Positions 2,675 through 38,786 of a DNA stretch of 64,000 bases are shown here, piece by piece (position 1 is the stretch's first letter; every line of letters starts with the position of its first letter). Under the pieces are notes generated by a model, which had not been told where the DNA came from, searched no databases, and saw only the letters and a list, made by a program, of their open reading frames with translations. A program made the position numbers and the translations under genes. The stretch is from Leptolyngbya sp. NIES-3755 (lineage in GTDB: Bacteria > Cyanobacteriota > Cyanobacteriia > Leptolyngbyales > Leptolyngbyaceae), in the NCBI GenBank assembly GCA_001548435.1, contig AP017308.1:5403030-5467029 (forward strand), read 5' to 3'.

Positions 2675-3409
2675 ATGCTCACTTCGCCCCAAGTTATCCC
2701 GGAACGCTGGTCGCCTGAAGCTTTCGAGAATGAGCTTCGTCAGCAACATCGTCGTTATCATCATTTGCATCCGTTTCATCAGCGAATGAATGCAGGAGAA
2801 CTATCACCTGAAGAAGTTCGACGTTGGGTGATCAATCGATTTTACTATCAGCGCAGTATTCCACTAAAAGATGCAGCAATCTTATCGAACTGTCCAGATC
2901 ATGAAGTGCGACGCGAATGGATTCAGCGGATTATTGATCATGATGGTCGCGCAGTTGGAGAAGGCGGAATCGAAGCTTGGTTGCGATTAGGAGAAGCCGT
3001 TGGACTGTCACGCGATCGACTTTTAAATGATCAAGAAGTCCTACCTGGTGTGCGTTACGCGGTCGATGCTTATGTGAATTTCTGCAAAACGAAGCCGTGG
3101 ATTGAAGCGATCGCATCTTCACTCACTGAACTATTCGGACCGGATGCAATTCGCGATCGCTTAGTGTCTCTCGAAAAGTACTATCCCTGGATTGATCCAA
3201 AAGGTTTCGATTATTTCCGTGTTCGACTCCATCAAGCTCCTCAAGATGCTCGATACGCGCTGAATCTAGTCTTACAACATTGTCAAACACTGGAAATGCA
3301 GCAAAAAGCAGTACAAGCATTAACCTTTAAATGCGATTTGCTGTGGAGTCAATTAGAAGCCATCGATCGAGGGGATACTCGTCCAGGAGTACAACATGAA
3401 CGCGAATAG
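2675..3409 (+). CDS. pqqC: Pyrroloquinoline-quinone synthase PqqC
   Basis: 244 aa, matching the usual ~250 aa. It belongs to the all-helical TenA/haem-oxygenase-like fold. Recognisable family stretches are the RRYHHLHPFHQRMNAGEL region, WVINRFYYQRSIPLKDAAIL and RRWIQ-like IIDHDG. PqqC is a cofactor-free oxidase that closes the ring and performs the final eight-electron oxidation to PQQ. It begins 9 nt after pqqB and its 3' end overlaps pqqD by 14 nt, so it is part of the same coupled operon. Confidence 0.94.
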   Translation: MLTSPQVIPERWSPEAFENELRQQHRRYHHLHPFHQRMNAGELSPEEVRRWVINRFYYQRSIPLKDAAILSNCPDHEVRREWIQRIIDHDGRAVGEGGIEAWLRLGEAVGLSRDRLLNDQEVLPGVRYAVDAYVNFCKTKPWIEAIASSLTELFGPDAIRDRLVSLEKYYPWIDPKGFDYFRVRLHQAPQDARYALNLVLQHCQTLEMQQKAVQALTFKCDLLWSQLEAIDRGDTRPGVQHERE

Positions 3410-3656
3410 TTCACCGTATCTTGCTTGTGGTGTGCGCCTCTTTTGGGACGAAGTTCGACAACAGCACTTTTTACTCTTTCCAGAAGGTGCGATCGCGCTG
3501 AATCGAACGGCTTTAGCAATCTTAGAACGCTGCGATCGACAACATACGATCAGTGAAATTATTGCAGAACTCACGGCACAGTTTGATCAAATGGTTGAAT
3601 CAGATGTGTATCAACTTATCGATCGTATTTCACAGCGAGGATTACTAAATGAATGA
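3396..3656 (+). CDS. pqqD: PQQ peptide chaperone PqqD
   Basis: 86 aa. A small RiPP-recognition-element protein: beta-strands with LFWDEVRQQHFLLFPEG and then the LNRTALAILERCD helix, as in PqqD. It binds PqqA and presents it to PqqE. It starts inside the 3' end of pqqC and overlaps pqqE by 8 nt at its own end. The order C-D-E with overlaps is the classical pqq arrangement. Confidence 0.92.
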   Translation: MNANSSPYLACGVRLFWDEVRQQHFLLFPEGAIALNRTALAILERCDRQHTISEIIAELTAQFDQMVESDVYQLIDRISQRGLLNE

Positions 3657-4734
3657 GATCCCCCGCCCATTTACTTTAGTTGCCGAGCTAACTTATCGCT
3701 GCCCGTTGCGTTGTCCGTATTGCTCGAATCCGATGAACTGGAGCGAATATCGGCAAGAACTTTCAACTGAAGATTGGGTACGAGTGATTCGGCAAGCTCG
3801 ACAGGCGGGCGTTTTGCAATTGGGACTAACCGGCGGAGAACCTTTGCTTCGAGATGACGTAGAAATCTTAGTCGAGACTGCGGCAGAACTAGGACTTTAT
3901 ACGACGTTAGTAACTGCTGGAACATTGTTCACTTCAGAACGAGCAACAAAGTTAAAATCTCTAGGATTAGATCATGTTCAAATCAGCATTCAGGATAGTG
4001 ACTTGCAGAACAACGATCGCATTGCTGGAACTCGATCGTTTGAGCAAAAACTCATCGCCGCTCGATTAGCAAAAGAGCTAGGATTTCCGCTGACTTTGAA
4101 CTTTGTATTGCATCGTCAGAACCTCGATCGTATTGAAGAAATGCTGTTACTGGCAGAAGAACTCAATGTCGATCGAGTTGAACTTGCAAATACTCAATAC
4201 TATGGATGGGCATTGCACAATCGAACTGCACTGTTACCGACTCGCGAACAGTTAACTCATGCAGAGCAAGTGGTAAAAGCGGCTCAACAACGCGGCAAAA
4301 TCCCGATGGGAATTCTCTATGTGATTCCAGACTATTACGCTCAGTATCCTAAGCCTTGTATGGGAGGTTGGGGCAATCGAACGCTGATTGTTACTCCCAC
4401 GGGTGAAGGTTTACCCTGTCAAGCTGCAATGGGAATTCCCGGTCTTGAATTTGGTAATGTTCGAGAGCATTCGCTGGATTGGATTTGGTTTGAAGCACCG
4501 GGAATGAATCGATTTCGGGGGGCAGATTGGATGCCGGAACCTTGTCAAAGTTGCGATCGCAAAAACATCGATTGGGGTGGCTGTCGATGTCAGGCATTTC
4601 TGCTCACTCAAAATGCAGAAGCCACTGATCCGGTGTGTTATCTCTCTCCCGATCGCGCTCAGATTCAATCCGCATTAGAGCAAGTGCCTGAGCAAGTAGA
4701 ACCGTTTGCTTACCGCGATCGACAAGCAGTTTAG
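3649..4734 (+). CDS. pqqE: Radical SAM PqqA peptide cyclase PqqE
   Basis: 361 aa. The radical SAM cluster motif C-x3-C-x2-C is visible in YRCPLRCPYCSNPMNW near residues 18-25, followed by the SAM-binding GGEPLLR. A C-terminal SPASM domain carries further Cys residues (PCMGGWG, LPCQAA, CQSCDRKNIDWGGC, PVCYL) for auxiliary Fe-S clusters. PqqE forms the C-C bond between Glu and Tyr of PqqA; the E43/Y47 pair lies in the peptide at 403-561. This is the last gene of the operon; no PqqF-type protease follows directly. Confidence 0.95.
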   Translation: MNEIPRPFTLVAELTYRCPLRCPYCSNPMNWSEYRQELSTEDWVRVIRQARQAGVLQLGLTGGEPLLRDDVEILVETAAELGLYTTLVTAGTLFTSERATKLKSLGLDHVQISIQDSDLQNNDRIAGTRSFEQKLIAARLAKELGFPLTLNFVLHRQNLDRIEEMLLLAEELNVDRVELANTQYYGWALHNRTALLPTREQLTHAEQVVKAAQQRGKIPMGILYVIPDYYAQYPKPCMGGWGNRTLIVTPTGEGLPCQAAMGIPGLEFGNVREHSLDWIWFEAPGMNRFRGADWMPEPCQSCDRKNIDWGGCRCQAFLLTQNAEATDPVCYLSPDRAQIQSALEQVPEQVEPFAYRDRQAV

Positions 4735-5754: not shown

Positions 5755-5895
5755 CGGTCTGCTTCACATAACTACATTATTTTAATCAAAAAGTAATGAT
5801 TGGTAAATCCTGAAACTTCCTGATCAAAGGTCTTGACTTCTTCTAGATTCCTTTGTTAAGGTTCTGGATATTGAACTTTATCGCCACTTCAGCAA

Positions 5896-5958
5896 ATGCG
5901 TTATAGCGTTTCCTACTTTTACTTTTTTTGGCGATCGGCGGCTCACCCGGCGAGGTAA
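5896..5958 (+). CDS. Aromatic leader peptide 1 (attenuator of aroF)
   Basis: A 20-codon ORF with the core YFYFFW at residues 7-12 plus Tyr3, giving three Tyr, three Phe and one Trp among 20. It lies 228 nt upstream of DAHP synthase. The stop (5956-5958) lies just past one arm of a stem that competes with a terminator. Together this is the logic of ribosome-mediated attenuation: stalling at the aromatic codons (5914-5931) keeps the downstream stem free and transcription continues. The ribosome site is weak. Confidence 0.8.
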   Translation: MRYSVSYFYFFWRSAAHPAR

Positions 5959-6008
5959 ATCCTCATGTGTCCGTCCGGTGAGCCGCAGAGTAACATCTGC
6001 GGTTTTTT
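5938..6008 (+). promoter_or_regulatory. Attenuator 1: antiterminator and terminator
   Basis: GCGGCTCACCCGG (5938-5950) pairs with CCGGTGAGCCGC (5975-5986), with one bulged base. The second arm ends in CCGC, which also begins the terminator stem CCGCAGA/TCTGCGG (5983-5989 with 5996-6002), followed by six T (6003-6008). The two structures share 5983-5986 and so exclude each other. A ribosome finishing leader 1 covers 5938-5950 and favours the terminator; a ribosome stalled on Phe/Tyr codons favours the antiterminator. Confidence 0.8.
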
Positions 6009-6032
6009 AATGTCCTAAATTCTTCTACAGCA

Positions 6033-6095
6033 ATGACTCACCTCACTTCCTGGCTCTACGGTTTTTACTTTTTTACCCACAGACGTTCTGGGTGA
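6033..6095 (+). CDS. Aromatic leader peptide 2 (attenuator of aroF)
   Basis: A second 20-codon ORF, 75 nt after the first. Trp7, Tyr9, Phe11, Tyr12, Phe13 and Phe14 lie close together (core WLYGFYFF), followed by THRRSG. It has the same length as leader 1 and the shared core FYFF. The stop codon overlaps the arm of the following hairpin, as expected for a leader peptide. It is too short for standard gene calling. Confidence 0.8.
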   Translation: MTHLTSWLYGFYFFTHRRSG

Positions 6096-6150
6096 GTTGT
6101 TGCATGTGCGATTTACCAGCCCGGAACCTAAAACAGGCTCCGGGTTTTTT
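6075..6150 (+). promoter_or_regulatory. Attenuator 2: four-segment attenuator with terminator
   Basis: The segments match a classical 1-2-3-4 attenuator. Segment 1 ACCCACAGA (6075-6083) pairs with segment 2 TCTGGGT (6087-6093), with one bulge. GTTCTGGGT (6085-6093) can instead pair with segment 3 GCCCGGAAC (6119-6127), seven Watson-Crick and two G-U pairs. Segment 3 also pairs with segment 4: CCCGGA (6120-6125) with TCCGGG (6139-6144), followed by six T (6145-6150), an intrinsic terminator. It lies 35 nt before aroF. Confidence 0.8.
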
Positions 6151-6185
6151 GTTTGTAGTTCATTCCATTTCTTAGGAGTTTCACC

Positions 6186-7040
6186 ATGAAAGATGCCAAG
6201 TTAGTCCTCAAATCCCATTCTGACCATCAATCGATCGTTTCTTTATCCAAGGAAGTCTCGATCGGCGGTCAAGAGATAGTCATTATCGGCGGTCCGTGTG
6301 CGGTTGAAAGTTTGACGCAGATGGAAACCGTAGCTCGTGAACTCAAATCGGCTCCGATTCAAGCATTAAGGGGAGGTGTGTACAAACCGCGCACTTCCCC
6401 TTACGCTTTTCAGGGCGCAGGGCTGGAAGGATTGGAAATTTTGGCAACGGTGAGCAAGCAGTATGATTTACCTGTGGTTACTGAAGTGATGGCGATTTCG
6501 CAGATTGAAGAGATTTCGGCTTATGCAGATATGCTGCAAGTTGGAAGCCGCAATATGCAGAATTTCGATTTGCTCAAAGCACTGGGACAAGCTGGAAAGC
6601 CGATTTTATTGAAGCGGGGACTGGCGGCAACCATTGAAGAATTCGTCATGGCAGCCGAGTACGTCATGAGTCATGGAAATCCGAATGTGGTTCTCTGTGA
6701 GCGGGGGATTCGGAGCTTCGATAGTTACACTCGGAATGTGCTCGATCTTGGTGCGGTCGCTGCTCTGAAACAGTTGACTCATCTGCCTGTGATTGTTGAT
6801 CCGAGTCATGCAGCGGGACGACGAGAACTGATTGCAGATTTGTCGAGAGCCGCGATCGCATGTGGAGCCGATGGATTGATTATCGAAAGCCATCCTGATC
6901 CTGATCAATCGGTGTCGGATGCACAGCAAGCTTTGTCGATCGAGGCAATGACGCAGTTAGTTCGCAGTATTAAGCCTGTGGCGGAAGCAGTGGGGCGAAA
7001 AATGTACGGGGTGGAATGTCCGCAATTCGCGATCGTATAG
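6186..7040 (+). CDS. aroF: 3-deoxy-7-phosphoheptulonate (DAHP) synthase
   Basis: 284 aa. It condenses phosphoenolpyruvate with erythrose 4-phosphate, the first step of the shikimate pathway to Phe, Tyr and Trp. The protein is the compact type I-beta (KDO8P-synthase-like) barrel: IIGGPCAVES, RGGVYKPRTSPYAFQG, LKRGLAATIEEF, VLCERGIRSFDSYTRN and IVDPSHAAGRRE carry the PEP/metal-binding residues. There is no N-terminal ACT/ferredoxin-like or chorismate-mutase domain, so no obvious feedback domain. A ribosome site TAGGAG (6173-6178) precedes the ATG. Expression is probably controlled by the two upstream attenuators. Confidence 0.93.
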   Translation: MKDAKLVLKSHSDHQSIVSLSKEVSIGGQEIVIIGGPCAVESLTQMETVARELKSAPIQALRGGVYKPRTSPYAFQGAGLEGLEILATVSKQYDLPVVTEVMAISQIEEISAYADMLQVGSRNMQNFDLLKALGQAGKPILLKRGLAATIEEFVMAAEYVMSHGNPNVVLCERGIRSFDSYTRNVLDLGAVAALKQLTHLPVIVDPSHAAGRRELIADLSRAAIACGADGLIIESHPDPDQSVSDAQQALSIEAMTQLVRSIKPVAEAVGRKMYGVECPQFAIV

Positions 7041-38715: not shown

Positions 38716-38786
38716 TGGTCACTGGTAGGACTCGAACCTACTTCATCTGCACGAAACAGATGCTTTCCCAATGAAGCAACAGACCT
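38716..38786 (-). tRNA. Degenerate tRNA-like element (anticodon position TCG)
   Basis: On the minus strand there is a good T arm (GTAGG-TTCGAGT-CCTAC), a good anticodon arm (ATCTG-TTTCGTG-CAGAT) and a D arm (GCTT-CATTGGGA-AAGC). The acceptor stem pairs badly: best alignment about 4 of 7, with missing bases between acceptor and D stem. The base after the anticodon is T, not a purine. It is probably a decayed tRNA or a tRNA-like structure. It lies about 100 nt upstream of tuf in the same direction. Confidence 0.5.

Follow-up and report, generated by a model that had tools for sequence, protein, structure and literature searches.

Two aromatic leader-peptide attenuators predicted in series upstream of aroF in cyanobacteria

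Why would a gene for the first step of aromatic synthesis be preceded by two short open reading frames (ORFs) dense in phenylalanine, tyrosine and tryptophan codons? The locus that raises this question lies in a 64,000-nucleotide stretch of the Leptolyngbya sp. NIES-3755 genome, which we analyzed as a whole and refer to as the window. Between positions 5833 and 6185, a promoter-like site, leader ORF 1, terminator 1, leader ORF 2 and terminator 2 follow one another, and then comes aroF (6186-7040; plus strand, as are all features of the leader). The aroF product, a DAHP synthase (3-deoxy-7-phosphoheptulonate synthase) of 284 amino acids, was identified by the NCBIfam models PRK08673 (E = 1.6e-120) and TIGR01361 (E = 4.4e-109), both above cut-off, and aroF is the gene that we propose to be regulated. 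Other DAHP synthase relatives in the 6.76-Mb source genome are one at 51% identity and a distant one at 28%. The nearest named relatives are filamentous cyanobacteria, for example Phormidium tanganyikae and strain FACHB-63. The pyrroloquinoline quinone synthesis genes pqqC, pqqD and pqqE, assigned by NCBIfam equivalogs above cut-off, occupy 2675-4734 (plus strand), about 1.2 kb ahead of the aroF leader. A preliminary description of the locus had proposed tandem aromatic-amino-acid attenuators before aroF, and the comparative evidence fits this proposal. From sequence comparison and folding models, we consider it very likely that the leader contains two ribosome-mediated transcription attenuators, independent of each other and placed in series, served by one promoter and both reading the charging of Phe-, Tyr- and Trp-tRNA.

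Leader ORF 1 (5896-5958; MRYSVSYFYFFWRSAAHPAR) and leader ORF 2 (6033-6095; MTHLTSWLYGFYFFTHRRSG), identified by ORF scanning and conservation, each have 20 codons and share the residues FYFF, as first described; at the nucleotide level the shared block is a 12-nt identity, TTTTACTTTTTT. We scanned both strands of the 64-kb window for ATG-initiated ORFs of 12-40 amino acids with at least five F, Y or W in any 10 residues, and these two were the only ones found. We then applied the same threshold of 5 of 10 to the 600 nt upstream of aroF in relatives chosen by their AroF protein alone. Of the 75 cyanobacterial relatives whose available upstream sequence was long enough, 72 had at least two aromatic-dense short ORFs there; such pairs occurred in 0 of 72-75 cases on the antisense strand or in either of two equally long control stretches. 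The chance level was gauged on the window and on the control stretches of the loci.

Across relatives, leader 1 takes the family form M....SYFYFWF..VHR[EG] and leader 2 the form MTYFSSWFYGFYFWPR.SSG, and the conserved tails, VHR and SSG, respectively, coincide with the antiterminator arm that each leader encodes. The preliminary description had suggested that the two leaders might sense different aromatic tRNAs. Codon content led us to reject separate amino acids for each leader, as F, Y and W codons were all present in each leader in 80 of 81 loci; the mean number of Trp codons was 1.78 in leader 2 vs 1.07 in leader 1. Recent duplication of one module was likewise rejected, given that the alignment of the two covers the 12-nt aromatic run only and similarity between modules 1 and 2 was not detectable beyond it. 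In alignments of relatives, insertions and deletions within the aromatic blocks were almost all multiples of three. The synonymous share of codon changes in the aromatic block was 0.51 for leader 2, with 0.15 expected, and 0.26 for leader 1, with 0.17 expected, the latter a weak bias; both values are to be read with the caveat that the codon patterns used to choose alignment rows partly presuppose aromatic residues.

These peptides could in principle act in another way, as ribosome-stalling sensors of a general slow-down of translation, of an inhibitor or of nascent-peptide arrest, and not of aromatic aminoacyl-tRNA. Nascent peptides of hydrophobic and aromatic character are able to arrest ribosomes, and drug-induced stalling at leader ORFs controls terminators elsewhere (MsrDL, PMC10314930). 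We nevertheless find such a role quite improbable here: the aromatic codons specify the amino acids with which the regulated pathway ends, the peptides differ between the modules, and F and Y exchange for one another within the aromatic block among relatives, as expected if the codons of a shared pathway are sensed but not for an arrest peptide of fixed sequence.

Sensing of aromatic aminoacyl-tRNAs by attenuation would require alternative RNA structures after each leader, which the preliminary description had also reported, and in both modules we identified a terminator together with competing helices that carry compensatory changes. In module 1, the antiterminator pairs a 5′ arm within leader ORF 1, past its aromatic codons (region 2, 5939-5950), with a 3′ arm (region 3, 5975-5985) whose 3′ end overlaps the 5′ arm of terminator 1; both arms are supported by an inverted repeat and by covariation. 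Intrinsic terminator 1 (5980-6008), supported by scan, fold and covariation, has the form GAGCCGCAGA-gtaaca-TCTGCGGTTT with a hairpin at 5980-6005 and a U-run at 6003-6008. Thus the antiterminator GGTTCACCGGG/CCCGGTGAACC overlaps the terminator GAACCGCAGAG/CTCTGCGGTTT. Across the family, 6 of the 13 antiterminator 1 pairs had changed on both sides, and 88% of cells were paired vs at most 47% when the pairing was slid. The core cells of terminator 1 were 100% paired, with compensatory changes in 4 of 8 core pairs. At alignment columns 106 and 107, which belong to both module 1 helices, A has changed to G with both partners still pairable (UA/UG; AU/GC).

Module 2 has an additional element, a stem that joins the start-codon region to bases past the stop codon. 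Its 5′ arm (region 1, 6030-6042) comprises the start and first codons of leader 2 and its 3′ arm (6091-6103) the stop codon and the bases after it, as indicated for both arms by an inverted repeat, minimum free energy (MFE) folding and covariation. In this start-codon stem 8 of 11 pairs had changed on both sides, and 75% of cells were paired vs at most 62% when slid; a comparable stem was predicted in 0 of 34 module 1 sequences. The antiterminator 2 5′ arm (region 2, 6085-6092), formed by the last codons of leader 2, was read from the sequence and is supported by helix conservation and the stalled-ribosome model described below; its 3′ arm (region 3, 6120-6127), supported by helix conservation, doubles as the 5′ arm of terminator 2. 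Intrinsic terminator 2 (6119-6150; GCCCGGAACCT-aaaac-AGGCTCCGGGT, hairpin 6119-6145, U-run 6145-6150) was assigned by fold, inverted repeat and conservation. Here the antiterminator AGTTCCGGG/CCCGGAACT competes with the terminator GCCCGGAAC/GTTCCGGGC. Antiterminator 2 was paired in 93% of cells with fewer double changes (2 of 9 pairs), and terminator 2 was paired in 95% of cells across the family, with compensatory changes present. The mutually exclusive pairing is therefore strongly maintained by compensatory change in module 1, and conserved with fewer double changes in module 2. The antiterminators of the window itself are weaker than those of the family, with one bulge in antiterminator 1 and a G-U pair in antiterminator 2. 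Fold z-scores were -4.0 for module 2 and -1.9 for module 1; conservation and covariation, more than these scores, are the main evidence for the modules. The preliminary description had made its reading depend on conservation of leader codons and stems in related species, and both were found, the stems with covariation.

Where transcription starts bears directly on whether both modules lie in the aroF transcript. A promoter-like site at 5833-5862, read from the sequence, has a -35 element TTGACT (5833-5838), an 18-nt spacer and a -10 element TAAGGT (5857-5862). We searched for the consensus TTGAC-N16-19-TANNNT, which yields consensus matches only. A match preceded leader 1 in 79 of 81 loci, usually 45-50 nt ahead of the ATG, relative to a background rate of 12 in 2071 windows. 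The same consensus occurred between the leader 1 stop codon and aroF in 0 of 81 loci, and we rejected a promoter between the modules or just before aroF. Transcript starts downstream of 6150, which the preliminary description had named as evidence against its reading, are thus not indicated by the sequence. We propose from these placements that one promoter drives the whole leader and aroF.

This placement also bears on the simplest alternative, that the aromatic ORFs arose by chance in ordinary T-rich intergenic DNA with the true promoter downstream of 6150. The aromatic blocks are indeed T-rich, and terminator 2, seen in the fold, was missed by the simple pattern scan, which caught terminator 1 alone. 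The chance reading is already contradicted by conservation of the modules across Cyanobacteriia with covarying helices, by control stretches without such ORF pairs and by the fact that no promoter-like site separates leader 1 from aroF in any of the 81 loci, and we assign it next to no probability.

The spacing of codons and helices is consistent with control by the position of the ribosome. The stop codon lies 3 nt past the antiterminator arm in 32 of 34 module 1 sequences and 1 nt past it in 42 of 43 module 2 sequences, and the distance from the start of the last aromatic codon to the arm is 8 or 11 nt in 31 of 34 leader 1 sequences and 13 nt in 38 of 43 leader 2 sequences. A bacterial ribosome covers about 12 nt, counted from the first base of the A-site codon. 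With this cover, a stall at nearly any aromatic codon would leave the arm mostly or fully free, and a ribosome that has finished the leader would, from its position at the stop codon, mask the arm.

We modeled this co-transcriptionally by ending the transcript before the 3′ arm of the terminator (region 4) and placing the ribosome either at a stall or at the stop codon. With a stalled ribosome, the antiterminator was predicted to form with a median of 1.00 in leader 2 and, for a stall at the first aromatic codon, 0.92 in leader 1; with the ribosome at the stop codon, the value was 0. With no ribosome on the window sequence, antiterminator 1 formed (0.83) and antiterminator 2 had a probability of 0.007, the latter because the start-codon stem (16.7 expected pairs) forms instead. 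This suggests, at the level of the model, that the untranslated defaults differ in the source genome, module 1 being open and module 2 closed. The antiterminator still formed on ribosome-free RNA in 31 of 43 module 2 relatives, so the closed default may not be general. Co-transcriptional modeling separated the ribosome states, unlike equilibrium folding of finished transcripts: with complete hairpins, the terminators usually won even with a stalled ribosome, and the states were poorly separated. Since equilibrium favors the finished terminators, the attenuation model requires the order of transcription, as do the enteric trp leader and classic attenuators generally.

Taken together, these features suggest the following mechanism. 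In each module, a ribosome would translate a short ORF in which Phe, Tyr and Trp codons are clustered. If charged tRNA is ample, the ribosome would reach the stop codon, 1-3 nt past the antiterminator 5′ arm, and cover that arm, so that the terminator hairpin could form and transcription would end. If charged Phe-, Tyr- or Trp-tRNA is scarce, the ribosome would stall within this cluster, at least about 8-13 nt short of the arm, and the free arm would pair with the 5′ portion of the terminator, allowing the polymerase to read on. The ORFs, the terminators, the competing helices, their order, the single promoter-like site and the linkage to aroF are established by sequence comparison; from them we infer translation of the leaders, ribosome stalling, termination in the cell, a response to starvation and a gain from having two modules.

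As for that gain, the polymerase would have to clear both terminators before reaching aroF, so that the pair would act as an AND gate with a single input. Compared with a lone terminator, this arrangement would be expected to reduce basal expression and make the response steeper: a per-terminator leak p with charged tRNAs would become about p squared through two in series. Two modules may also multiply the dynamic range, as suggested in the preliminary description. In the window sequence, the antiterminator of an untranslated module 1 is expected to form (default open), and in an untranslated module 2 the start-codon stem is predicted to block the antiterminator (default closed). We raise, as a doubtful possibility, the extension that such opposite-default attenuators read the same three aminoacyl-tRNAs across the class, with aroF switched on only when leader initiation is combined with aromatic stalls and not upon general translation failure. 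If true, the opposite-default tandem would be a filter that tells aromatic starvation from general translation arrest.

To determine how widely the modules occur, as the preliminary description had recommended, we ran one covariance model per module, R1 for attenuator 1 and R2 for attenuator 2, on 390 Cyanobacteriia genomes; E-values from these models are rough. R1 was found in 144 genomes, R2 in 140 and both in 133. In all 133 double carriers R1 was 5′ of R2 on the same strand, and the two starts were separated by 133-316 nt (median 165). Each of the 60 loci that we kept adjoins aroF, with the modules just upstream, and a close aroF ortholog was missing in the non-carriers examined, the sole exception being a gene cut by a contig end. 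A separate phylum sample overlapped this class sample in 26 genomes that have a close AroF (E ≤ 1e-90); comparison by hand showed both modules in 24 of them and one module in 2. None of the plasmid records carried the leader region.

A few genomes have a single module. Module 1 stands alone in G051, G084 and G097 of family f11 and in G318 (loci L176-L179), and module 2 stands alone in G005 and G349 (L172, L174). Three further genomes, G281, G333 and G317, at first counted as R1 only, proved to have a divergent leader 2, so the model-based single-module counts are upper limits. Each module seems able to stand alone, two in series being the usual state; as some genomes have a single attenuator, the tandem is not indispensable. 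These natural single- and double-module versions make the benefit of a second serial terminator directly testable. R2 matches away from aroF (G041, G060, G008) and second matches in G291 and G378 had no such leader and no aroF behind them and were judged to be chance.

The single-module genomes might suggest that only one module attenuates on aromatics, the other being a leader whose terminator is constitutive or vestigial, and the slightly weaker helices of the window compared with the family average point the same way. Against this, aromatic codons, antiterminator, terminator and spacing are kept in both modules in all 133 double carriers, and both antiterminators covary, whereas a vestigial element would decay. 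One working module is thus quite unlikely, and we retain two functional attenuators as the preferred reading.

In G148, at C48:72500-74900 (L206), attenuator 1 is intact and aroF is cut to a fragment (residues ~45-89) fused into another open frame; this locus is a remnant of a lost aroF at which the leader persists. Its persistence could favor a main role in trans, with terminated leader RNAs or peptides as regulators (as with peTrpL) and aroF control secondary, and attenuator leader peptides can work in trans (PMC7298713). The strict linkage of the modules to aroF in all 60 kept loci and their lack in genomes without a close aroF ortholog make a primarily trans-acting role very unlikely, and favor control of aroF itself. 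Similar attenuation of the second, ~50%-identical DAHP synthase was rejected, with no aromatic-dense ORF pair upstream of the paralogs examined (L183-L200, L002). At L180, in G060, the ORF MKNSQFWYSFTFRSATGVRHRSG lies ~400 nt upstream of a 53%-identical DAHP synthase paralog, which hints at a related leader in another DAHP synthase subfamily.

To determine if the leader belongs to a known family, we searched Rfam. Nothing was found in the leader region at gathering thresholds, and the leader families (Trp, Phe, His, Leu, Thr) and the T-box gave no match in 5780-6200 at E ≤ 1, in agreement with the preliminary description, which knew of no matching named family in cyanobacteria; identity as a known Rfam leader, riboswitch or T-box was therefore rejected. 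Elsewhere in the window are a ribosomal protein L10 leader (RF00557, 17949-18095, minus strand, 71 bits), an ordinary cis-regulatory RNA, and a borderline tRNA match (38722-38782, minus strand, 29.8 bits vs a gathering score of 29) that is possibly a tRNA remnant. A 2010 survey placed amino-acid-specific leader peptides in Proteobacteria and Actinobacteria only, plus its own Firmicutes cases (PMC2965389), and a 2016 survey stated that there were no reliable data on the attenuation mechanism in cyanobacteria (PMC4833913). We found no prior report of tandem attenuators at cyanobacterial aroF in the literature searched, which left out most subscription journals, and leader-peptide control of the aromatic-sensing kind is apparently undescribed for cyanobacteria. 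On sequence grounds the aroF locus is a strongly supported candidate for such a system, placed where aromatic synthesis begins, a step that is also a metabolic engineering target, and it would signal transcription-translation coupling in cyanobacteria close enough for ribosome-controlled termination.

Finally, we compared the aroF leader with known systems. It has the sequence-level features of a ribosome-mediated attenuator: aromatic leader ORFs, terminators, exclusive antiterminators, the expected geometry and an upstream promoter consensus. Like the enteric trp, pheA and his attenuators, which consist of a leader peptide, a 1:2 pairing, a 2:3 antiterminator and a 3:4 terminator, it places an ORF with codons for the product before a biosynthetic gene, opposes an antiterminator to an intrinsic terminator and has a stop codon that lets a finishing ribosome mask the antiterminator arm. 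Unlike them, it is cyanobacterial, precedes the first shikimate enzyme, would read all three aromatics and stacks two sequence-unrelated modules, of which module 1 shows no protective stem like 1:2. The uORFC-13-1 motif (PMC8632094), reported by that paper from Acholeplasma only, plus unassigned environmental sequences, likewise has a Phe-codon uORF and terminator upstream of aroF; its published description, with a single uORF, a different structure and no tandem, sets it apart from the cyanobacterial leader.

Among serial arrangements, the Salmonella mgtCBR leader (mgtM, mgtP; PMC3641672) likewise contains a pair of short ORFs, one after the other and each linked to alternative stems, that control transcription of the same genes. 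It reads two signals, ATP and proline, and its authors called this two-signal leader a singular example (PMC3641672), whereas F, Y and W codons occur in both leaders of aroF; serial ORFs with alternative stems are thus common to both, and different signals, judging by the codons, are not. The aroF leader further differs from mgtCBR in having its own intrinsic terminator for each ORF, in preceding a biosynthetic gene and in occurring across much of a bacterial class. The mefA/msrD operon (PMC10314930) is similar in having two attenuators of the leader-peptide type, with terminators, within a single operon, but its second attenuator affects msrD only and its signal is macrolide-stalled ribosomes. 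In the tandem riboswitches of Bacillus clausii metE, as summarized in PMC3641672, two terminators are also in series in one leader, but these are metabolite-binding RNAs for two ligands and not translated leaders for one signal class. Stacking two attenuators on the same signal is unusual. The kind of mechanism, trp/phe-type attenuation, is known; what appears to be new is the family, together with its design of two modules in tandem on one signal.
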